From assembly GCF_004118375.1 (NCBI RefSeq), contig NZ_SDHX01000001.1, forward strand, positions 124,001 through 188,000: a stretch of DNA of 64,000 nucleotides, read 5' to 3'. Under the pieces are notes generated by a model. That model made no database searches and was not told where the DNA came from. It saw nothing but the letters and a program-made list of their open reading frames with translations. The stretch is from Oleiharenicola lentus (GTDB taxonomy: Bacteria; Verrucomicrobiota; Verrucomicrobiia; Opitutales; Opitutaceae). Of this stretch, positions 17,218 through 29,098 are shown in pieces. Both the position numbers and the translations under genes were made by a program. How positions within the stretch are numbered: the first letter of the stretch is position 1; each line of letters starts with the position of its first letter.

Positions 17218-20200
17218 ATGCACAGCAAACCACTGCACACGCTGCTGCGCGCAATTCTATGGCTGGTCGCTGCGGCCACGGCGGGCGCTCAAGTAGTCAC
17301 CTATACTTGGATCACCACTGGCGGGGCCACCGACGACAACTACAACAACACCGCCAACTGGGTTGGCGGCACCGTTCCGCTCAACGACGGCAACGCCCGG
17401 CTTTACCTTCCGGTCTCCAACGGCACCGAGCTGATCACACTTCCCGGCGGGAGCCTGACACTCAACTCGCTCAATTTAGACGCGTCGTATCCAGGCACAA
17501 CTTACCGGTTTGGCAGCGCCGGGGCGACGACGCTGACTTTCTCGCCGACCAGCGGGTCCTACGGCCAGACCAGCAACAACAGCGGCTACGCCCGCACGCT
17601 CATTTTTGATGCGGGCATCATGCTGAATTTCGCCACCGACCAGTATTGGACAGCCCAGTATGTCACCTTCAATGGTGCAGCCGGTGGTGCAGGGCGATTC
17701 CGCTTCCTGCCTCTTTCCTACTATGCAACGCCATCATGGAATACCGGCACCCTCACGCTGAACGGCCCCGGCAATTTCACCGGCGGTTTCGAGACGTACA
17801 ACGTCAACCTGGTGCTCAATCACGTCAGCGCCTTGGCGGGCGGTCCGCTTTATCTGACCGACACCTCGATCCAGGCGGCGGAAGGCTACGTCCTCAACAA
17901 CCCCATGCAGGTTTCGGGCTCCTTTGGGTCCAACACCAACCAGCTCACCCTGACCGGTCCAATCACGCTGGGGGGTCTCACCGGCATGGGCGGCGGCTTC
18001 ATCGTCACCGGCAACATCGGCGAACTCACGCCGGGCACCCAACTCAACATCACCCACGGCACCGTGCGACTGTCGGGCACCAACACCTACACGGGTGAAA
18101 CGGTCGTGGAGGGAGCCAACCGCGCCACGCTGCTGTTCGAGACCGCCGCGTCCGTGCCGACGGCCGGTGAGATCCGCGCCGAGACCAACGCCTACGCCGG
18201 CGTGGCCTTCACCACCGGCGTGCAGACCGCGTTTCTCAACCGCCTCAACAACGAGCTATACACCGGCACCATCGGCTTCGATTCGCTGGGCGCCACGCAG
18301 ACTTTTGCGGAAGACATCGATCTGACCAGCCTCGTCGGACCGCTCGGCCTTGGCACCACCACCTCGGCCATCCTCACCGGCAACATCTTCACTGCCGCCG
18401 ACGGCACCGCCAACTACGGCTTCGGCAACGGCGGCGGCAAGCTCACCGTGGCCTCGAACCTCACCGACAACGTCGGCGTGGACATCACCACGACCAGCTA
18501 CTGGACGCCCACGACCGTTGTCCTGCAGGGCAACAACACCTTCAACGGTGACGTCAACGTGGACAGCGGCGTGGTGATATTCGACAGCGCGAACGCCCTG
18601 CCCGTTGGGGTGACCGTCCATCTCGACCAGCGCTCCGGCAGTCACGTCTTCGCCTATGCCGGCGTCACCGAAAATTCCGCGCTTTCTCCGCAGGCGCTCC
18701 TCGGCCGGCTCGATCTCCAGACCACCGAGCACGTGCTCGGGGTAGATTCCACCAATCCGGGTGCCCCGCGCACCCTCGCCGATGCCATCGACCTCACGGG
18801 TGCGCTGGCCGGGCTGAACAGCGACGAACATCTATTTATCGGCACCGCAACCGGGGCCACGCTCACGGGCACGCTTACCTCCGGAACCACCGCATTGGGA
18901 CTCACGGGCCTGAAGGGCGCCCAGCTCACGGTGGATTCGGTGCTCACCGACGCCACGATCGGCGGGCTGCTGATTGGTCTGTCGGATGCTCCCATCGGCA
19001 TCCGCGGTTCCGTTCGGCTTAACGGAGCCAACACCTTCACCCAAGGGACGCGGTGGCAAACCGGCGACCTCATCCTGGGCCATGCCAGTGCCCTCGGCAC
19101 CGGCCGTTTGTTGGTCGGGGAATACGCCACCAGCCTGACCTACACCGGTGACTTCACCCTGAACAACGATTTCCGGTTCGAGAATTACGACCCGGTGAAA
19201 CTGAGCACCGCCGGTTCCACCGCGAATCTGACGCTCACTGGCACGCTCCTCAGCGGTTACAGTTACGGCGGCGGTTTTCTCTATCTTGGCGCCGGCACCC
19301 TGACCTTCGCCGGCACCGCCCGCGCGTTGGGCTGGCTCGACATCGAGGCCGCCCCCGGGGGCGCGGTGGTTTACAACCGCCCGAACGCACTGGCCCAGGG
19401 CGTCACCCTCACGAGCGGCAATATTACGATCGCCGCCAACACGGACATCAAATGGCTGGAAACGGATCCCGGCACCGGCGTGCAGATTGCCACCGGGGCG
19501 ACGCTCGGCCTGCTCTCCAACAATTATGGCGAAGGCCCGCTCGCGCATAAGATCGAGGGCACCCTCAGCGGCGGTGGCTCGGTCAGGATCGAAGATATCG
19601 ACGCCGCCCTGCTCGGCACCAACACCTACACGGGCGGCACAACGCTCTCCGGAGGTGCCGTCGGGTTCATCCACGGTGCGGCCATCGGCTCCGGGGCGGT
19701 GACGGTCACAGCCAAGGGCGGCGTACTGACGGCCCTGGCGCCTGACATCACCTTGAACAACCCCCTCGTGTTGGACGGGCCGCTGGAGCTGCGCGGCGAC
19801 ATTTGGTTTGGCTACGACGACTACAACTCGCCCGGCAACCGCAACTTCACGCTGGGCGGGACGATCAGCGGCTCTGGCTCGCTGTTCAAGGATTCCGACA
19901 ACACCGTCACCCTCACCGGCGCCAACACGTTTTCCGGCGGCGTGGAGATCAACCAAGGCACGATGATCTTTGCGCACAACCAGGCCGCCGGCACCGGCCT
20001 GCTTGATTTTGGCGAGGCGGGCGGCGGCACGGCGATTTTCACCACCGCCGCCCCGACCATCGGCGGACTCAGGGCCGCCAACTACTACGGCGCGGGTAAC
20101 GTGCAGCTCGCGGCCAACTCCACCCTCACGGTCAACCAGCCGATCGACGCCGTGTTCATGGGCGGCATCTCCGGTCCCGGCGCGCGGGTGATCAAGGGCG

Positions 20201-23200
20201 GCCCCGGTTATCTCACGCTGGCCGGCGGAACCTACTCCTACACCGGCGGCACGACGATCACGGCCGGCGGTATCGTTTTCGACGAAGAAACGGCCCTCAC
20301 CACGAACCCAAGCGGAAGCATCCATGTCGCTTCCGGCGCCTACGCCGGTGTGAGCTCCGGCGCCGATAGCCCTTGGTCCAGCTTTGCCACCCGGGTCGAC
20401 CCGGCCTCCACCGGCACGCTGGGTGTGGACGGGTTCGACAGCGTGACCGACGAGGTGAACCTCACCGGCTTCGCTCCCGGCCTGCGTTTGGGTTCGGCCA
20501 CGTTCGGCACCTTCGAATCCAGCGCCACGATCACGCCCAACGGTGACTATCTGTTCGGCGGCGGCGGCGGCACGCTGGTGGTCAAATCCACCCTCACCGA
20601 CGCGCTGAAATCCGTGGACGTCAACTCGCCCGCCGGGCAACCGCTCACGCTTTGGTTGCAGAACAGCAATTATTTTGGCGGCCCGCTCACGGCGACGAAC
20701 TCCGCCGTGATCTTCGATGTACATGCCGCCGACTACATCAGTGGCTTGCAACTCGGCACGGGCGGCTACGTGGGCAGCGCCGAACAGCAGTTCACCCCGG
20801 CGGCATTTCTGGCCAAGCTCGCCCCCGGCACCAACACCGGCATGGTGGGTTTCGATGACCTCGTGGGTTACGGGCGGGTGGTGGGTGGAGCCATCGACCT
20901 CAGCGCCTTCGGAGCCGGACTCTATCTGGGCACCGCCACCACCGCCACCCTCCGAGGCCCGATCACCCTGCCCGTCGGGGCGTCCGCCTACCGCTTCGCG
21001 GCCTACAAAGGGGCCGGCCTCACCGTGGATTCCAATCTCACCGGCTCCCTGCAGGTCGTGATCGGCGACCCGGCGTCCTTCGGCACCATGCGGACACCGC
21101 ACGACGAAGACCAGTTCTCGAAGGTTACGCTCACCGGTCTCAACACCTACACCGGCGGCACCGTGTTGAACGCGGGCACCCTCTCCGCCCGGCCGCGTTC
21201 TCTCGGCTCCGGGCCGCTGACCGTCCAGCCCAATTCGTTTCCCACGCCGCAGGACCCAATCCACGGTGCACCGCGGTTCGAGCCGTTCGAGCAGGGCGCG
21301 AAATTCACCCAAAACATCGTCTTGAACGGTTCTCTGGCCCTGGTTGGTGACAACTACACAACCCTCGCCGGCACGATTTCCGGCGCAGGCACACTTTTCA
21401 TCGACCGCAACGCGGGCGATCTCCTGACCCTGACCGCGGCCAACACTTACACTGGCGGCACGGTTTTCCGGAGCGGCACCCTGGGCCTCGGGCACGACAA
21501 CGCCCTCGGCTCTGGCTCATTCAGTATTCATCCGGACGCCCAGCTCTACACCTCCGGGGGGCCGCGCACGCTGGCGAACTCCATAACCCTGCTGGATGAC
21601 GCGGAATCCTACGACGCCCCCCGGTTGCGCGTGGCCGGGAACCACAGCCTCACCCTCAACGGCCCCGTCTCGATCAACACCACCTTCGGTTACGCCTACG
21701 TTTCCGACACCTCCGACGACCGGCCGACGCTGCCGCTCCTGCGTTTCAACGGCGGGATCAGCGGCGACGCCGAGCTGATCTTCGAGATGGGCAACGACAA
21801 CAACACGAGGATCTGGCTGGCCGGCGCCAACACCTACACGGGTGGCACCACGGTAAGCAACGGGCAGGTGATCTTTGACTCTCTCGCCTCGCTGCCGACC
21901 ATCGGTGAGTTAAGCAACTATTCCGAAGGCTACATCGGCTTGGCCACGCCGGCCGCCAACCTCCAGACGGCCTACATCGACCGGTTCAGCCAAGGTTACG
22001 GCCAGGTCATCGGTTTCGACAGTCCGGACGTAAACGCACCGCAGGTTTTCTCGGCCAACATTGATCTGCGTGGGCTGAGTTATCCCTACCTGAGCTCGTC
22101 CACCGCGGCCATCCTCACGGGCACCATCACCCCGTTTGACGACGTGTATCGCTTTGCCGGCAACGGCAGCGGGGTGCTCACCGTGGCTTCCGCCCTCACT
22201 GGCGACCGCCAGCTGCGGATGGACAACACCTCGGCGCCCCTGCTGCTGCGGCTTACGGGCACGAACACCTACACCGGCCAGACCTCGGTCAACGGGACCG
22301 GCGTGATCTTCGCCACCGCGGCCTCCCTGCCGGCGGGCCAGCACTTTGCCCCGCACCCCTCGATCGGCGCCTACTTCGGCTACGAGGATCCCGCAATCAC
22401 GGTGGGCAGCTTCCTGTCGCACTTCTCCCCCAGCACCACCCACGCGGTCGTGGGGTTTGACTCCGTGGACGTCCAGGCTCCCCGCACCATCACCTCGCCG
22501 GACCTTTCCTATTTCAACACCAGCACCGACATCTATCTCGGCACGGCTACCAGTGCGATCATAGACGGCACCATCACGTGGCCGACCCTGAACAGCGGCT
22601 ACAACTTCGCCGCCTACCGCACCGGCCGGCTCACGGTCAACTCGACCCTTGGCGGCAGCGGGATCGTCCGCATCGGCAATGAAAAGCAGCAATGGACCCT
22701 CACCGAGGTCCATGGCGCGCTTCCCACGGTCGAGCTGGCGGGGAACAACACCTACACCGGCGGCACCTACTTTTCCGGCGGCCAGCTGGTTCTCAGCCAC
22801 GCCAATGCGCTCGGCACCGGCACGCTGACGGTGAGGATTCCCTACTACAACGATTTCAAGGTCCACCAGCTTCTGCTCAACACGCCGTCCGTGGCGAACA
22901 ACCTGTTCCTCGAAAACTACAGCATCGACCTCCGCCTCGCCACCACCCAGTCCGTGGGCACCCTGTCCGGCCAGATCGGGGGTTCTGGCAACCTGCTGAA
23001 AGTGGGCGCCAACACCATTCGCCTGACCGGCACCAACAGTTTCGTGGGCGACATGCTCGTCGAGCAGGGTGTGCTCGAGTTTGCCAACGCCGCCGCCGTC
23101 GGCGGCAGCACCGACAACCGGCTCTTCCTTCAGGGGAGCGGCGCCACCGCGCACTTCAGTGCCGGCAGTCCTGTGCTCGGTGCGCTGCTGAGTGATCCCG

Positions 23201-24066
23201 ATGCCGGTGGCACCGTGCAGATCGACAACGGCGTGAATCTCCGCCTCGGGGCGCACGACTCCGGTTTTGTTTACGAAACCAATGATTACCACGGCACCAT
23301 CACGGGCGCGGGCAGCCTGACCAAGGACGGGTTATCCACGGTCACGCTCCACGGCGCCAACACCTTCACCGGCGGCACCACCATCACCCAGGGCGTGCTC
23401 CTGGCCGAAAACGCCACCGCCCTGGGCACCGGAGCGATCACGCTCAACGGCGGCGAACTCGCCTTTGGTCGCGGCGTCACGATCCCCAACCCCATCAGCT
23501 TCGGCGCCTCGGGCGGCCTGCTCTCCGGTGCCTCGACCTTCAGCGGCCCCGTCGTCCTCGGCGCCCAGGCCGGCCTGTCGCCCGGCAACTCGCCCGGCAC
23601 GATGACCTTCGCCTCCGACCTCACGCTGGCCGGCGCCAGCTTCCTCGACTTCGAGATCCAGGACCCCACCGGTCTGGCCGGTGCGGGCTACGACACCCTC
23701 TCGGTCGGCGGCACGCTCTTTGTCACCTCCACCCCGGGCACGCCGTTTGTGATCAACATCCTCTCCCTCGATGGCGCGGGCAACGCGGGTCAGCTCCAGC
23801 TCTCGGATCCCAACGCGAGCTACTCGCTGCTCGTGGTGTCAGCCGGCCTCGTCAGCGGCTTCGCGCCGGAGAACTTCACGCTCAACACCGCCGGCTTCTC
23901 CACCAACTGGGGCAGCAATTACAGCTTCTCGCTCGTCCAGTCCGGCAACCAGCTGCTGCTGAACTTCAGCCCCGTGCCCGAGCCCTCAACCTACGCCCTC
24001 CTCGGCCTCGGCGGCCTGCTGGCGGGCCTGGCCCGCTGGCGCCGGCGCTTCAACGGACGGGACTGA
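17218..24066 (+). CDS. Giant autotransporter-associated beta-strand-repeat protein with PEP-CTERM signal
   Basis: A 2282-residue exported protein. An N-terminal signal peptide (residues 1-24, ending TAGAQ) is followed by about 2200 residues rich in Thr, Gly, Asn and Ala, organised as a right-handed beta-helix-like stack. I count about 13 copies of the autotransporter-associated beta-strand motif (N-T-[YF]-T-G-G-T and variants), for example TNTYTGGTTLSGGAVGF and ANTFTGGTTITQGVLLA. There is no autotransporter barrel. The protein ends VPEPSTYALLGLGGLLAGLA followed by RWRRRF, a textbook PEP-CTERM tripartite signal recognised by exosortase. It is therefore probably released or anchored at the surface, perhaps in exopolysaccharide. 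Its 3' end overlaps the convergent nucleoside hydrolase gene by 17 bases. Confidence 0.92.
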   Translation: MHSKPLHTLLRAILWLVAAATAGAQVVTYTWITTGGATDDNYNNTANWVGGTVPLNDGNARLYLPVSNGTELITLPGGSLTLNSLNLDASYPGTTYRFGSAGATTLTFSPTSGSYGQTSNNSGYARTLIFDAGIMLNFATDQYWTAQYVTFNGAAGGAGRFRFLPLSYYATPSWNTGTLTLNGPGNFTGGFETYNVNLVLNHVSALAGGPLYLTDTSIQAAEGYVLNNPMQVSGSFGSNTNQLTLTGPITLGGLTGMGGGFIVTGNIGELTPGTQLNITHGTVRLSGTNTYTGETVVEGANRATLLFETAASVPTAGEIRAETNAYAGVAFTTGVQTAFLNRLNNELYTGTIGFDSLGATQTFAEDIDLTSLVGPLGLGTTTSAILTGNIFTAADGTANYGFGNGGGKLTVASNLTDNVGVDITTTSYWTPTTVVLQGNNTFNGDVNVDSGVVIFDSANALPVGVTVHLDQRSGSHVFAYAGVTENSALSPQALLGRLDLQTTEHVLGVDSTNPGAPRTLADAIDLTGALAGLNSDEHLFIGTATGATLTGTLTSGTTALGLTGLKGAQLTVDSVLTDATIGGLLIGLSDAPIGIRGSVRLNGANTFTQGTRWQTGDLILGHASALGTGRLLVGEYATSLTYTGDFTLNNDFRFENYDPVKLSTAGSTANLTLTGTLLSGYSYGGGFLYLGAGTLTFAGTARALGWLDIEAAPGGAVVYNRPNALAQGVTLTSGNITIAANTDIKWLETDPGTGVQIATGATLGLLSNNYGEGPLAHKIEGTLSGGGSVRIEDIDAALLGTNTYTGGTTLSGGAVGFIHGAAIGSGAVTVTAKGGVLTALAPDITLNNPLVLDGPLELRGDIWFGYDDYNSPGNRNFTLGGTISGSGSLFKDSDNTVTLTGANTFSGGVEINQGTMIFAHNQAAGTGLLDFGEAGGGTAIFTTAAPTIGGLRAANYYGAGNVQLAANSTLTVNQPIDAVFMGGISGPGARVIKGGPGYLTLAGGTYSYTGGTTITAGGIVFDEETALTTNPSGSIHVASGAYAGVSSGADSPWSSFATRVDPASTGTLGVDGFDSVTDEVNLTGFAPGLRLGSATFGTFESSATITPNGDYLFGGGGGTLVVKSTLTDALKSVDVNSPAGQPLTLWLQNSNYFGGPLTATNSAVIFDVHAADYISGLQLGTGGYVGSAEQQFTPAAFLAKLAPGTNTGMVGFDDLVGYGRVVGGAIDLSAFGAGLYLGTATTATLRGPITLPVGASAYRFAAYKGAGLTVDSNLTGSLQVVIGDPASFGTMRTPHDEDQFSKVTLTGLNTYTGGTVLNAGTLSARPRSLGSGPLTVQPNSFPTPQDPIHGAPRFEPFEQGAKFTQNIVLNGSLALVGDNYTTLAGTISGAGTLFIDRNAGDLLTLTAANTYTGGTVFRSGTLGLGHDNALGSGSFSIHPDAQLYTSGGPRTLANSITLLDDAESYDAPRLRVAGNHSLTLNGPVSINTTFGYAYVSDTSDDRPTLPLLRFNGGISGDAELIFEMGNDNNTRIWLAGANTYTGGTTVSNGQVIFDSLASLPTIGELSNYSEGYIGLATPAANLQTAYIDRFSQGYGQVIGFDSPDVNAPQVFSANIDLRGLSYPYLSSSTAAILTGTITPFDDVYRFAGNGSGVLTVASALTGDRQLRMDNTSAPLLLRLTGTNTYTGQTSVNGTGVIFATAASLPAGQHFAPHPSIGAYFGYEDPAITVGSFLSHFSPSTTHAVVGFDSVDVQAPRTITSPDLSYFNTSTDIYLGTATSAIIDGTITWPTLNSGYNFAAYRTGRLTVNSTLGGSGIVRIGNEKQQWTLTEVHGALPTVELAGNNTYTGGTYFSGGQLVLSHANALGTGTLTVRIPYYNDFKVHQLLLNTPSVANNLFLENYSIDLRLATTQSVGTLSGQIGGSGNLLKVGANTIRLTGTNSFVGDMLVEQGVLEFANAAAVGGSTDNRLFLQGSGATAHFSAGSPVLGALLSDPDAGGTVQIDNGVNLRLGAHDSGFVYETNDYHGTITGAGSLTKDGLSTVTLHGANTFTGGTTITQGVLLAENATALGTGAITLNGGELAFGRGVTIPNPISFGASGGLLSGASTFSGPVVLGAQAGLSPGNSPGTMTFASDLTLAGASFLDFEIQDPTGLAGAGYDTLSVGGTLFVTSTPGTPFVINILSLDGAGNAGQLQLSDPNASYSLLVVSAGLVSGFAPENFTLNTAGFSTNWGSNYSFSLVQSGNQLLLNFSPVPEPSTYALLGLGGLLAGLARWRRRFNGRD

Positions 24067-24976
24067 CAAGCCGCGCCACGAAGTGGTCGAGAAACGCCGC
24101 GGGATCTGAAGTCAGCGCCACGCGGGCGTTGGGCGGCCGATCCGCGACCTCACGCGTGGTGCCATCGGCCTCGACGACGAGGTGCAGTGCGGTGAGCAGC
24201 ACGTGGTCAGGCGTTGCGACGAGAGTGACGGCGAGGTTGTCGAACAAGGTGGGCAGCTTGGCGCTCCAGGTGTTCGTGTGCGTCCAGACGAAGTCGAGCG
24301 CCGCGAGCGCATCCGTCAACGGGGTGCCGTGCGCAAAGAGCCGGGTTTTCCGCTCGGTAGTCAGCTTGAGGTCGGAGGTGGAATCCAGCGGCGCGATGAG
24401 CAGCGGCACCCCGGAGGAAAAAACGACCTGCGCGGCCTTGGCGGCGGACTTGATGTTCCACTCGGGTTCGGGCTTGGACCCCGGCGCGTAGCCACGCCGG
24501 ATGGAGCCGCCCATCAGGGCGATGGCCTTGAGCTTTTTCCCGATGCCGGGCTCGGACTCAAGCAGCGCGGCGACGTTGGTCAGCTCGCCGACGGCGATCA
24601 GCACGATCTCACCCGGGCGCGCGTTGATCTGCTGACGCAGAAACTCAATGCCGCCGGATGAGTGCAAAGCCGGCGAAGTGAAGCCGGCCGCCCATTCGAC
24701 CTGCTTCATGTATTGGGTCGCGGTGGAGAGGCCGGCGTAAACCGGCACGTCGCTGCGTCCGGCGACAGTCAACAGTTTCGCCGCCAGTCGCGCCCGGGCC
24801 ACGGCGTCGCCCGACACCGTCGTCACGCCGAGCAGTTCCAGCTCCGGGCTGCGCAACACCTGTGCCAGCGCATACGCGTCGTCGATGTCGGTGCCGATGT
24901 CCGTGTCGAGGAGGACGGGGATGGGTGCGGCGACCAAGGAACCGAACAGCAGGCATTCCAGCAGGAGCAGTTTCAT
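24050..24976 (-). CDS. Exported nucleoside hydrolase (IunH/RihA family)
   Basis: A 308-residue protein with a short signal-like N-terminus (MKLLLLECLLFGSLVAAP) followed directly by the family hallmark DTDIGTDIDDAYAL (residues 24-37), whose Asp cluster binds calcium and the ribose. GGSIRRGYAPG with PEPEWNIKSAAKAA downstream matches the substrate-binding region. The enzymes hydrolyse ribonucleosides to base and ribose; specificity is not readable. The ATG at 24976 is taken for the signal peptide. The tail overlaps the convergent PEP-CTERM gene by 17 bases. A periplasmic location would suit nucleoside salvage. Confidence 0.87.
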   Translation of the reverse strand: MKLLLLECLLFGSLVAAPIPVLLDTDIGTDIDDAYALAQVLRSPELELLGVTTVSGDAVARARLAAKLLTVAGRSDVPVYAGLSTATQYMKQVEWAAGFTSPALHSSGGIEFLRQQINARPGEIVLIAVGELTNVAALLESEPGIGKKLKAIALMGGSIRRGYAPGSKPEPEWNIKSAAKAAQVVFSSGVPLLIAPLDSTSDLKLTTERKTRLFAHGTPLTDALAALDFVWTHTNTWSAKLPTLFDNLAVTLVATPDHVLLTALHLVVEADGTTREVADRPPNARVALTSDPAAFLDHFVARLVSPVR

Positions 24977-25036
24977 GCGGGAAGCATGGACGGAATCACG
25001 GACGCGACAAGCACCCGCGCCGGATGTGTTCAGCCT

Positions 25037-25160
25037 GTAGCTGCGCTTGAGTCCCGCCATCGCGGGGCGAAAGCGTGGCGCGGATAGAAACCACGCTGTC
25101 GCCGTTTCGACACGCTCAAGGTCCAGAGCCTGTCGAGGGACTGCGCTCCAGCGCGGCTAC
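25037..25160. repeat. Interspersed repeat family 2, full copy
   Basis: It begins GTAGCTGCGCTTGAGTCCCG, has GAAAGCGTGG...CCACGCTGTC arms, a single TTCGACACGCTCA, and ends GACTGCGCTCCAGCGCGGCTAC. Block order is as in the copy at 2953-3113. Its last bases (CTA, 25157-25159) supply the TAG stop codon of the DUF1643 gene on the minus strand. Confidence 0.75.
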
Positions 25161-25663: not shown

Positions 25664-28600
25664 TCAGCTCAAAATCTCCCGCAGGCTTTCTAGGTCCATC
25701 ACGGTGGCGACGGATTCTTCCTGGATGACGGCGGAGGCGAGGGCGGACTTCTCGCGCTGCAGGGCGCGGATCTTCTGTTCGACGGAATTGTCGGCGATCA
25801 GGCGGTAGGCCATCACGGGGCGCGTCTGGCCGATGCGGTGGATGCGGTCGATGGCCTGGGCCTCGGCCGCGGGGTTCCACCACGGGTCGTAGAGGAACGC
25901 GTAGCTTGCGGCCGTGAGGTTGAGGCCGAAGCCGGCGGCCTTGAGCGAGAGCAGGAAGACGGTCTTGGATTTGTCGGTCTGGAATTGATCCACCAGCTCG
26001 GCGCGGTTCTCCGTCGCACCGGTGAGAATGAGATGACCGATGTTCGCCTCCACGAGACGGGCGCGGATGAGTTCCAACATCCCGGTGAACTGGCTGAACA
26101 CGAGCACCTGGTGGCCTTCGTCGGCGAGTTCCTCGATGCGCTCAAGCAGGGCGTCGAGCTTCGCGCTGGGCAGCGCGGCGTGCGCCGGATCGACGAGCGC
26201 GGGATGGCAGCAGATCTGGCGCAGGCGGAGCAGGCTTGCGAGCACGTGGAAGCGGACCGCGCCGAGCTCGCCGGGCGTCTTCACGCCCATCAGATGCGCG
26301 CGGGCGCGCTTCAGCTCGGCGTCGTAGAGCGCGCGCTGTTCGCCCTCGAGGTCCACGATGATGTCGTCCTCGGTGCGCGTGGGCAGGTCGGGCGCGGCCT
26401 GGGCCTTGGTGCGGCGCAGCAGGAAGTGTTGCACGCGCCGGTGCAGTCGCGCGAGGGCGGCCGGTTCGACCTCCGGGTATTGGCGGCGGAAACCGGGCTG
26501 GTCGCCGAGCAGGCCGGGCTGCGCGAAAGCGAACAAGCTCCACAAGTCCGTGAGCCGGTTCTCGATTGGCGTGCCGGTGAGCACAAGGCGGTGCTGCGCC
26601 TGCAGCGAACGCGCGACGATGGCCACCTGGCTGCCGGGGTTCTTGATGAACTGCCCTTCGTCGAGCACGACCGCGTCCCATTCCGCCCCGCGGAAGGCCG
26701 TGGCGTGCAGCCGCAGCTGCGCGTAATTGGCCACGAGCACGCGCGGCGCCGTCCGCCCGGGCGCATCAATCGCCTCGGCGACCGCCCGCGGGTTCACCGG
26801 GTCAAACGCCACCGTCTCCAACTCCGGCGCAAAACGCGCCGCCTCCGTCAGCCACCCGTGCGTCACGCTCTTCGGGCAGACCACGAGGCAACGGAACGGC
26901 CGCATGCCCTCCAGCCCAATGTTCGTATTACGAACATTGGGTTGGGTTTCCTCGGGCGGACGCGAGCTGACAATGTTCGTAATACGAACATTCGCGGTTT
27001 CCACGAGGTGGAGGAGCCAGGCGAGGGTTTGCACGGTTTTGCCGAGGCCCATGTCGTCGGCGAGGATGCCGCCGAGGCCGTGGCGGGAGAGGTGGGCAAG
27101 AAACTGGAAGCCTTCGCGCTGGTAGGGACGCAGCTCGGCGCGCAGTCCGGCCGGAAGCGCCGGCGGTGGCAACGCGGCCAGACGGGTCAGGCGCTCTTTC
27201 AGCTGATGAATGACCAGCGCGTCCTCACCCACGAATGGCTCAGACGCGGCGGCGAGCTGCAGGGCGTGCAGGCGGTGGTTGGTCGCGCGCCCCGTGGCGA
27301 TGACTTCGTCGAGGCTCAAGCCCAGGCGTTCGAGCGCGACGGCGGCAAGAGGATCGATGGCGAGAGACGGGTCGAGGCGGCGCCAGCCGTGTTTCGGCAG
27401 GCTGACCCATTTGCCGCGGGCCTTCACCAGCAGGGCGATTTCCTCGGGCGTGAGCGTGGTGTCCTCGATCTTCACGCCGACGGACAGGTCGAACCAGTCC
27501 TCCTTGTTTCCTCCGGCGGGGGCGACGCCGAGTTTCAGGTGCGCGCGCAACGGCGCGCCGAGCAACGCAGCGAGTTCCGGCGACACATCGAGCTCGACGT
27601 CATCGGGCAGTGCCTCGTGCCAGTCGATGAACTCGTCGGGAAAGCTGTCCGACACGGGCCGCGTCCACGCCTCGGCCCAGCCGTCCCACACCAGGCGAAA
27701 CGACGCGAAGCTCCCGCTCACGACCTGGGCCTTGGAGAGATCGAACTCGAGCAGTGGCTCCCCCGGGCCGCGTGGTGGCGGCAGGCCTTGCGGGCTCCAT
27801 TGCCAGCCGGCGTTCTCAGTCCAACGCTGTTCGCAGGGCGGGTTCTCGGCGCGGGCGACGAGTTGCGCGTGAAAGTCGCGCTCGTTCTCCTCGTAGGCGG
27901 GTGTGAGCCAGCAGCGCAGGCGCGGACGCAGCACGACGGTGCGGATCTCGGCCGACAGGCCGGCGGGCAGACGAATGCCCGCCGCGCGCAGGCGGGGCAA
28001 AATGCGGGCGTCGTTGAGAGCGGCGGTCGGCAGCTGGGAGGAGGGGGCCGGCGGCGGACCGCGCCAGACGAAGCCGTCGAACAGGTAAAGCGGTTCCGGG
28101 CGCGGCGCGATGAGTCGTGCGCCCGCGGCGACGCGTCCGTCGGGCGTGACGAGATGCAGGTCGAGCCGGTCGGCCTTGCCCGGCGCAGCGCTGGCCTGGA
28201 ACGCGAGCGGTTCCGGCTGCACGGCGAAGGGGCTGCCGTCGGGCAGCACGAGGGCGGCGCGCGCGGCCGTGGTGCGCAGGAGACCGACGACAGTTTCCTC
28301 GGAGAGCGACAGGCGCGGCGTGAGGGTGCGGGCGTCGAGGCGGCATTCCGCGGCGAAGGCGGCGCCAAGCGCGGCCTCGGCCGGCGGCAGGTGCTCGAAA
28401 TCTGCCGGGCGCGACGCGGCGATATCGGCCAGCAGACGCTTGGCCGGCGGTTTCCAGCGCGGCTCGTCGGCCACGCGGACTTCCAGCTGCCACTTGCCGG
28501 TGGGTTCGAGCCGCACGCGCAGGCCGGCGATCTGTTGCAGCGGCCCGCCCGCGGGTTTTTCACCCGGTGCGGGCAGGGCGCGCAACCAGGCGGCGAGACC

Positions 28601-29032
28601 GGCCGGTAGCACGGGTTCGCTGCTGGGCGTGATCGGAGCGGCAGGTTTCGCCTCGGCGGCACGGTCCGCCGGCAGCAGGGGAATGGTCGGGCGGCGGCCG
28701 TCAAGCTGGCCGGCTTCGACCGCGGCCAGCCAGGCGAGGCCGGCGGCATAGACGTGTTCGCAGCGGTCCAGCACCGGACACGAACAGCGCGAGGTCCACG
28801 CGCCGCGGGTGAGAAACAACGTGATCCCGAGCAACTCGCTGCCGATGTCCACCTCGGCTTTCACCAAGTGGTCGGCCTCGGACCAGACCTCCTTCACGGC
28901 CTTGCGGCGGTAAAGGTCGCCGCCGACCTCGCGCGTCTCCGCGGGAAACGTGCCCAGCCAGCCGCGCAGCGCGGTGAGCGCCTGCGGCGTGCGGACCGAG
29001 CGCACGGCGGGTTGACGGGGATTGGGCGGCAT
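25664..29032 (-). CDS. SWIM/SNF2-family helicase with in-frame palindromic insertion
   Basis: A 1122-residue DNA translocase. A SWIM zinc finger is at residues 83-93 (CSC...CEH), then a long family-specific middle, then the SNF2 ATPase: motif I DDMGLGKTVQT near 660, CLVVCPKSVTHGW (Ia), VVLDEGQFIKN (II, DEGQ type), LTGTPIENR (III), and the C-terminal helicase lobe with VLVFSQFTGMLELI, SLKAAGFGLNLTAA and RIHRIGQTRPV (VI). Between motifs I and Ia, residues 681-706 (NVRITNI...NVRNTNIG) are encoded by two inverted 21-bp palindromes and look inserted. Bacterial SNF2 proteins of this type remodel protein-DNA complexes; the exact role is unknown. The ATG at 29032 avoids a repeat upstream. Confidence 0.9.
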   Translation of the reverse strand: MPPNPRQPAVRSVRTPQALTALRGWLGTFPAETREVGGDLYRRKAVKEVWSEADHLVKAEVDIGSELLGITLFLTRGAWTSRCSCPVLDRCEHVYAAGLAWLAAVEAGQLDGRRPTIPLLPADRAAEAKPAAPITPSSEPVLPAGLAAWLRALPAPGEKPAGGPLQQIAGLRVRLEPTGKWQLEVRVADEPRWKPPAKRLLADIAASRPADFEHLPPAEAALGAAFAAECRLDARTLTPRLSLSEETVVGLLRTTAARAALVLPDGSPFAVQPEPLAFQASAAPGKADRLDLHLVTPDGRVAAGARLIAPRPEPLYLFDGFVWRGPPPAPSSQLPTAALNDARILPRLRAAGIRLPAGLSAEIRTVVLRPRLRCWLTPAYEENERDFHAQLVARAENPPCEQRWTENAGWQWSPQGLPPPRGPGEPLLEFDLSKAQVVSGSFASFRLVWDGWAEAWTRPVSDSFPDEFIDWHEALPDDVELDVSPELAALLGAPLRAHLKLGVAPAGGNKEDWFDLSVGVKIEDTTLTPEEIALLVKARGKWVSLPKHGWRRLDPSLAIDPLAAVALERLGLSLDEVIATGRATNHRLHALQLAAASEPFVGEDALVIHQLKERLTRLAALPPPALPAGLRAELRPYQREGFQFLAHLSRHGLGGILADDMGLGKTVQTLAWLLHLVETANVRITNIVSSRPPEETQPNVRNTNIGLEGMRPFRCLVVCPKSVTHGWLTEAARFAPELETVAFDPVNPRAVAEAIDAPGRTAPRVLVANYAQLRLHATAFRGAEWDAVVLDEGQFIKNPGSQVAIVARSLQAQHRLVLTGTPIENRLTDLWSLFAFAQPGLLGDQPGFRRQYPEVEPAALARLHRRVQHFLLRRTKAQAAPDLPTRTEDDIIVDLEGEQRALYDAELKRARAHLMGVKTPGELGAVRFHVLASLLRLRQICCHPALVDPAHAALPSAKLDALLERIEELADEGHQVLVFSQFTGMLELIRARLVEANIGHLILTGATENRAELVDQFQTDKSKTVFLLSLKAAGFGLNLTAASYAFLYDPWWNPAAEAQAIDRIHRIGQTRPVMAYRLIADNSVEQKIRALQREKSALASAVIQEESVATVMDLESLREILS
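26915..26992. repeat. In-frame pair of inverted palindromes inside the helicase gene
   Basis: Arms AATGTTCGTA/TACGAACATT around one central base occur at 26918-26938 and again, as the exact reverse complement, at 26972-26992, 33 bases apart. Flanking bases extend the first palindrome to 27 bp (26915-26941). The block adds 25 codons without a stop, and is AT-rich against a GC-rich gene. I saw no other copy in the window. Confidence 0.85.
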
Positions 29033-29056
29033 GGGCGAGGGCGAAAGCGCGTTGGG

Positions 29057-29098
29057 GAGCCGTTTCGGCAGGCTCAAGGCCCTGAGCTCGTCGAACGG
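29057..29098. repeat. Fragment of interspersed repeat family 2
   Basis: CGTTTCGGCAGGCTCAAGG followed by CCCTGAGCTCGTCGAAC is related to the TTCGACAAGCTCA...GGCCCTGAGC block of the element at 2953-3113. It occupies most of the 83-base gap between glyQS and the helicase. Confidence 0.5.

Follow-up and report, generated by a model that had tools for sequence, protein, structure and literature searches.

Paired palindromes in a helicase gene of Oleiharenicola lentus are probably operator-like sites in a network that co-varies with a predicted helix-turn-helix protein

Introduction

SlmA has a 12-bp palindrome, of which E. coli carries 50 copies, most of them within coding sequence (PMC3116907); REPIN-RAYT systems comprise inverted palindrome pairs, each flavor beside its own gene, for which co-evolution of protein and repeat has been proposed (PMC3116915); and Rickettsia palindromic elements (RPEs) are palindromic DNA lying in frame in unrelated genes, as elements of about 150 bp whose families code for a conserved peptide (PMC10969869). 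Here we describe two 21-bp palindromes inside a helicase-like gene in a 64,000-nucleotide stretch of the Oleiharenicola lentus genome (contig NZ_SDHX01000001.1, positions 124,001 to 188,000; hereafter the window). From sequence comparison, we argue that these twin palindromes are probably an operator-like pair belonging to a network of sites that co-evolves with a predicted helix-turn-helix (HTH) protein and is kept by selection.

The likeness to each described system is partial. As with SlmA, MatP with its matS sites, and Noc, which are concerned with nucleoid occlusion and macrodomains, there would be a small sequence-specific protein and tens of dispersed, little-varying palindromic sites; unlike in those systems, the sites are largely arranged as pairs with a spacer, enclose the gene of the protein itself, and cluster near it, their specificity differs between close species, and a genome can hold up to 8 homologues. 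REPIN-RAYT offers inverted palindrome pairs, a flavor beside its own gene, and protein-repeat co-evolution, but no Y1 partner was found here among the matches listed, what recurs between the palindromes is instead an HTH-like open reading frame (ORF), and the palindromes are perfect, have unrelated pair interiors, often lie within genes, and are conserved at orthologous places. The likeness to RPEs is palindromic DNA in frame in unrelated protein genes, although the common part here is only about 21 bp, without a shared interior of about 150 bp, and an HTH partner is present. HipB, P22 c2, and the C proteins of restriction-modification systems are small repressors that act on palindromes. The resemblance to them is one of fold class, from weak Foldseek matches; unlike for HipB and C proteins, no HipA or restriction partner was noticed in the ORFs read beside the gene, and no Pfam, PHROG, or NCBIfam family scored above cut-off in the proteins scanned. 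None of the best matches in our literature search described such an HTH-palindrome system.

A dispersed family of paired palindromes

The window's palindromes, AATGTTCGTATTACGAACATT and AATGTTCGTAATACGAACATT, are both exact, are mutual reverse complements, and are separated by 33 bp; two sites at ≤3 mismatches appeared in 0 of 100 shuffles of the window. This agrees with the first-pass annotation of the stretch, which had reported such a pair in frame in a helicase and proposed looking for it elsewhere in the genome. The window's own genome, G000, indeed holds 52 palindrome sites at ≤2 mismatches, compared with 0 for the reversed control. Most sites are paired, with gaps of 31–33, 41–42, 51–55, 98–101, or 119 bp, and only the 21 bp and a weak border, about GSCC[21]GGSC, are common to the copies; spacers and flanks are unrelated. 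Judged by eye from the central base, 16 of 21 adjacent G000 pairs have inverted orientation (12 T..A and 4 A..T). Their centre-to-centre distances fall into classes of 52–54, 62–63, and 72–76 bp, and distances of ≤81 bp are phased with a 10.5-bp period (R 0.80, n = 17, 0/5000 jitters as high), as are all 21 pairs together (R 0.59, 8/5000). Phasing is also seen in G026, a genome of another genus, at distances of 45–47 and 55–56 bp and longer (R 0.63, n = 17, 13/5000). The jitter test takes pairs as independent.

Sites in G000 lie between convergent, tandem, and divergent genes and within genes. Among the 50 of the 52 sites examined in detail, 12 are in the middle of genes, distributed over 8 genes that include the window helicase and exclude a doubtful ORF at L050 with two more; intergenic sites between convergent genes are found at L047, L048, and L052. 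Where the ORF is coding-like, the palindrome is read in the frame that gives NVR at 13 of 14 G000 sites (12 of 12 without the two in the doubtful ORF) and at 22 of 30 sites in other loci, 3 of the 30 coming from G020. Gene context was taken from our own ORF calls, which missed at least one likely coding site (L066, by eye). The sites therefore share with RPEs their in-frame presence in unrelated protein genes; no common function was noticed among the host genes.

Among 57 genomes, G000 and 56 relatives, 10 contain the palindrome, in 1 to 52 copies each. In the named genome collection, the exact palindrome was present in 81 stretches whose record names read Opitutaceae, Opitutia, Opitutus, Lacunisphaera, Oleiharenicola, or Verrucomicrobia/-microbiota, bar one metagenome-assembled genome labelled Actinomycetota. 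There (L126, WLRQ01000072.1, 6673–6693) the palindrome stands in an ORF's NVRNTNI frame, on a contig that is possibly mis-binned. Two copies in L131 (2746–2784 and 4299–4337, 1553 bp apart) have 39 nt in common, well past the palindrome.

Palindromes bracket the genes of a predicted HTH protein

When 465 ORFs from the vicinity of palindromes were all compared with one another, a recurring family of about 120 residues emerged, at 7 loci in 7 genomes, encoded 0–6 nt from palindromes. In the clearest cases, a palindrome is followed by the start codon, and the stop codon by a few bases and a second palindrome. A larger group in the same comparison, which by eye we take to be sulfatase-like, comprised 8 loci at 0–2286 nt from a palindrome. 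The G000 member of the 120-residue family (G000:C1:847757-848113) lies about 0.7 Mb from the window pair, between copies of the same palindrome, and sites gather around it: 5 of 27 other clusters are within 60 kb, where 0.69 would be expected, one of them at 0.6 kb. In G026 the corresponding count is 3 of 17.

The protein matched no family above cut-off in scans of four members against Pfam, two against PHROGs, and two against NCBIfam, and no catalytic feature was recognized in these scans; YdaS (PF15943) reached 13.6 and 14.9 bits in two of the four, against a Pfam cut-off of 30. An AlphaFold model built from six sequences contains a long N-terminal helix and four more helices (mean pLDDT 64), and most of its top Foldseek matches belong to the lambda-repressor type of HTH protein (CapH, HipB, C proteins, and P22 c2; E ≥0.28). 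On this model, the assignment to a lambda-repressor-like HTH fold is weak but consistent. Of 286 genomes searched across the class, 19 gave matches to the protein: 15 were strong, all in the window's bacterial family, and the 4 outside it were weak (E about 1e-9 to 1e-10). As far as searched, this is an unnamed family of predicted HTH proteins that is strong in only one bacterial family. No neighbor is common to all 30 loci of a first set; one ORF type, presumably membrane-transporter-like, recurs beside the gene in 8 of them, and a second, which we take to be glycosyltransferase-like, in 4 others.

Loci found by protein similarity alone carry other palindromes at the gene borders, for example TGTCACGTATTACGTGACA, GTCAACTAATAGTTGAC, and ATTTTGCGTAATACGCAAAAT. 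In the first set, palindromes lay within 350 nt at 18 of 30 loci, 16 of them two-sided, and 45 palindromes fell in 20.3 kb of HTH flanks; the 49 control loci, over 189.9 kb, had 18, of which 4 are G026's own sites by its helicase orthologue. A further set of 20 loci, one of which (L350) repeats L179, had palindromes at 14 (12 two-sided and 2 one-sided) and none at 6. Combined, 32 of 49 distinct HTH loci are bracketed by palindromes, with over a dozen half-sites.

Half-sites vary with the predicted recognition helix

In a set of 33 proteins with half-sites chosen by hand, the motif H[RK][AG]R occurs in the predicted recognition helix of all 10 proteins with GTTCGTA half-sites and in 0 of 23 others, and RQAV accompanies GTCAAC half-sites in 3 of 3 proteins, two of which are identical in that stretch. 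A Mantel test of recognition helix against half-site gave 0 of 2000 permutations as high, with a partial r of 0.42 given the rest of the protein. Half-site and putative recognition helix thus seem to change together between species. Palindromes and HTH gene also co-occur. A second pattern, GTNACNTAWTANGTNAC, is found in 28 of 57 genomes and is most notable in G017 (38 copies) and G026 (35), and palindromes of the two patterns are present in 24 of 25 genomes with the HTH gene versus 4 of 32 without it; inside the window's family, the figures are 24 of 25 versus 3 of 12.

Conservation, switching, and decay in close relatives

Many sites occupy orthologous positions in G020, which helicase identity marks as the closest relative. 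Of the 18 G020 loci, 13 have a G000 match, and 10 were compared after exclusion of the HTH locus, a tandem helicase paralogue, and an 84-bp match. Palindrome cores in these loci are 97% identical (248/255), whereas the spacers between them have drifted to 51% (174/340); identity is 724/1000 in the near flanks and 3819/5000 in the far ones. The outer triplets AAT/ATT have become AAA/TTT fully at 20 of 32 G020 sites and by half at 3, with 9 unchanged, and AAA/TTT triplets are also those of the palindromes that bracket the G020 HTH gene. Core mutations are confined to the unswitched sites (5 of 9 versus 0 of 23 others; Fisher 0.0006). G000 has one AAA/TTT site and one half-changed site (L062 and L058). 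G003 carries a single HTH gene, of GTCAC type, and the two copies examined there, in rsmB and the OGT-like gene, have decayed.

The helicase locus and the origin of sites

The window pair (Table 1) lies in the minus-strand ORF 25664-29077, between DMGLGKT and LVVCPKS; both the SNF2-type identity and the motif names follow the first-pass annotation and are presumptive. That annotation had placed the encoded NVRITNI and NVRNTNI at a point where relatives have a short loop, and proposed aligning orthologues in search of some that lack the block. Both points hold: the distance from DDMGLGKT to CPKS is 64 aa in the window helicase and 38 in the orthologues of G003 and G017, which lack the block. 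It is 36–44 aa in 13 other relatives with DDMGLGKT, 89 aa in the tandem paralogue of G020, which has a palindrome pair of its own with another spacer, and 32–63 aa over the same interval in 12 more distant DEMGLGKT paralogues that were read. The loop peptide may be a by-product of sites accommodated in a tolerant loop.

Table 1. Features of the palindrome pair and its host gene, in window coordinates
Feature	Position	Strand	Remarks
Palindrome 1, 21 bp, T-centred, AATGTTCGTATTACGAACATT	26918..26938	.	minus-strand reading gives NVRNTNI
Spacer, 33 bp (centre-to-centre 54 bp)	26939..26971	.	encodes VSSRPPEETQP; sequence not found in other copies
Palindrome 2, 21 bp, A-centred, AATGTTCGTAATACGAACATT	26972..26992	.	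reverse complement of palindrome 1; NVRITNI (minus strand)
Host gene, presumed SNF2-type helicase, 1137 aa	25664..29077	-	palindrome pair between motif I and motif Ia

To look for target duplications at gained copies, 9 G000 clusters were aligned with G020 and G003; the alignments of L070, L059, L047, L063, and L051 were unusable. In two genes, presumably rsmB and a beta-galactosidase-like (GH) gene, 21 bp of native coding sequence are replaced by a palindrome without change of length. In rsmB, G018 has a palindrome pair at the place of the single one in G000 and G020; the 54 bp by which they differ equal one site plus a spacer. Loops have grown in nadB, a cupin, an OGT-like gene, and the window helicase, and those of L056 and L067 have been rewritten. 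L048 and L062 look like gains: each has in G000 a block of about 200 bp, with 2–3 palindromes, that is missing from G020 and G003, and no target duplication is visible at either of these two usable cases. Because length-neutral replacements, grown loops, and apparent block gains are all found, sites seem to arise both by creation in place and by insertion; for in-place birth, the only mechanism we can offer is selection on partial sites.

Several further observations concern these loci. In G026, the orthologue of the window helicase is flanked on both sides by GTCACGTAWTACGTGAC palindromes (L028, G026:C24:667607-667725 and 671688-671750), and the HTH gene of G026 is about 40 kb away. A second SNF2-type gene in G020 (L331) has another repeat-like stretch, GCCCTATGGGGCTTATGGGGCGTATAGGGTCTATATTC, in the loop where G000 has the palindrome pair. 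The ispG loop that contains NVRNTNI in G011 and G018 holds a different and longer repeat-like in-frame insert (for example, SNVQHSTPNAERSS...LNVERS) in four other genomes (L275, L277, L279, and L281, from G017, G004, G010, and G015). Elsewhere in the window, a repetitive ORF of 2282 aa at 17218-24066 (+), whose C-terminal tail we take to resemble PEP-CTERM, adjoins a hydrolase-like ORF at 24050-25060 (-).

Discussion

Because palindromes bracket the HTH genes, half-site and helix co-vary, cores are conserved where spacers are not, and the G020 sites have switched toward the palindromes beside that genome's own HTH gene, we consider it probable that the palindromes are binding sites kept by selection and that the helicase pair is an operator-like element of such a network. 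The possibility that the palindrome is a protein-binding site, which the first-pass annotation mentioned in closing, is thus the best-supported reading, albeit one predicted from sequence. Under this model, the cognate predicted HTH protein of about 120 residues would bind each palindrome as a single dimer, and two such dimers, lying on one face of the DNA, would act together across the phased spacer. Selection would hold about 50 scattered sites, mostly pairs, in step with the protein; sites would be situated between genes or in tolerant protein loops and would decay where the matching HTH subtype is missing.

A number of observations weigh against this model. At 17 of the 49 distinct HTH loci, the rule used found no palindrome. 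The AlphaFold model is weak, as are the Foldseek matches (E ≥0.28). The helix does not separate GTCAC- from GTAAC-type half-sites, since [RK]QR or PQR occurs with both. Both co-variation and co-occurrence partly reflect shared descent, which inflates the co-variation result. GTNAC-type palindromes occur in genomes in which no HTH gene was found, with 8 in G024, the main exception, 2 in G021, and 1 each in G036 and G044. Phasing is weak in loci from the named collection (R 0.47, n = 15, 195/5000 at 10.5 bp; R 0.26, n = 21, 1317/5000 with long spacers included). In G020, 9 of 32 sites have not switched, and three of these are intact AAT/ATT sites, while G003 retains one intact-core site, CATGTTCGTATTACGAACATG. 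Finally, the blocks of about 200 bp gained in G000 look like the gain of an element.

The first-pass annotation inferred an RPE-like element or a REPIN-like transposable hairpin. In the form considered here, a pair or a single palindrome would be a mobile miniature element that an enzyme acting in trans copies to new places, with the HTH protein only a regulator or passenger. Copy numbers from 0 to 52 within one genus fit such an element, as do the in-frame gains in loops, the block gains, the inverted pairs, and the clustering of sites near the HTH gene. Some palindromes are also lengthened by perfectly matching arms, as long as 15 bp and otherwise unrelated in sequence (for example, L108 3683); long arms, with a score of ≥6, occur in 13 of 165 flanks, whereas shuffles gave a mean of 1.3 and a maximum of 5. 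However, copies have unrelated spacers and flanks, no target duplication was seen at the two usable block gains, and the rsmB and GH gene replacements are length-neutral. Orthologous G020 sites persist with diverged spacers, and those with switched outer bases match the changed palindromes by the G020 HTH gene. Among the matches listed, Y1 transposases (PF01797) turn up in 41 of 57 genomes whether or not these carry sites, and G000 itself has four; no such gene recurs beside palindromes, and the bracketed protein has no recognized catalytic feature. What stands of the earlier interpretation is a dispersed palindromic family, in frame in protein loops and missing from some orthologues; that it is a mobile hairpin now appears unlikely.

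We also doubt that the sites form an ordinary transcription regulon, in which the HTH protein would act at each site to repress or activate the neighboring genes. A predicted repressor-type HTH, palindromes that abut its start codon as in autorepression, and phased pairs suited to cooperative repressors would all be expected of a regulon. Sites between convergent genes and in the middle of genes would not, nor would the lack of a common function noticed among host genes or the further palindrome found after the HTH stop codon at most of the bracketed loci. RNA hairpins or terminators kept as structure are a very improbable explanation: the palindromes are self-complementary, at times with longer arms, but the same sequence occurs in coding DNA, spacing classes differ by roughly one turn of the helix, inspection of the flanks by eye gave no sign of a T tract, and the sequence itself is conserved across species beyond pairing.

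Other candidates were set aside. A link to RAYT showed no association among the Y1 matches listed, beyond one G010 contig with a Y1 gene about 2.2 kb from a palindrome. For a phage origin, the exact palindrome was found in 0 viral contigs, and no HTH relative was confirmed there. By eye, no T tract that would point to terminators was noticed, and a CRISPR-like array was dismissed on its few, unrelated spacers. Fold-back copying of arms could account for the long matching arms but not for the birth of sites.

As for what the proposed network does, a chromosome-level job, such as bridging, marking, or silencing DNA, seems likelier than promoter control, because sites occur in every orientation and inside genes; overall, we lean toward a chromosome-level or selfish role and away from plain promoter control. 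More speculatively, the HTH genes might form a new class, each enclosed by its own palindrome and seeding a genome-wide network of near-identical sites, some written in place over 21 bp of coding DNA, which drift in specificity then rewrites, so that the networks of close relatives become mutually unreadable; we hold this extension only tentatively.

If the model is correct, these bacteria carry an unnamed protein family with over a dozen binding specificities that can be read from sequence alone, and they would provide a natural experiment on the co-evolution of a DNA-binding protein with about 50 sites. They also raise the puzzle of how 21-bp sites originate in conserved genes without a change in length, and why the genome protects them there.
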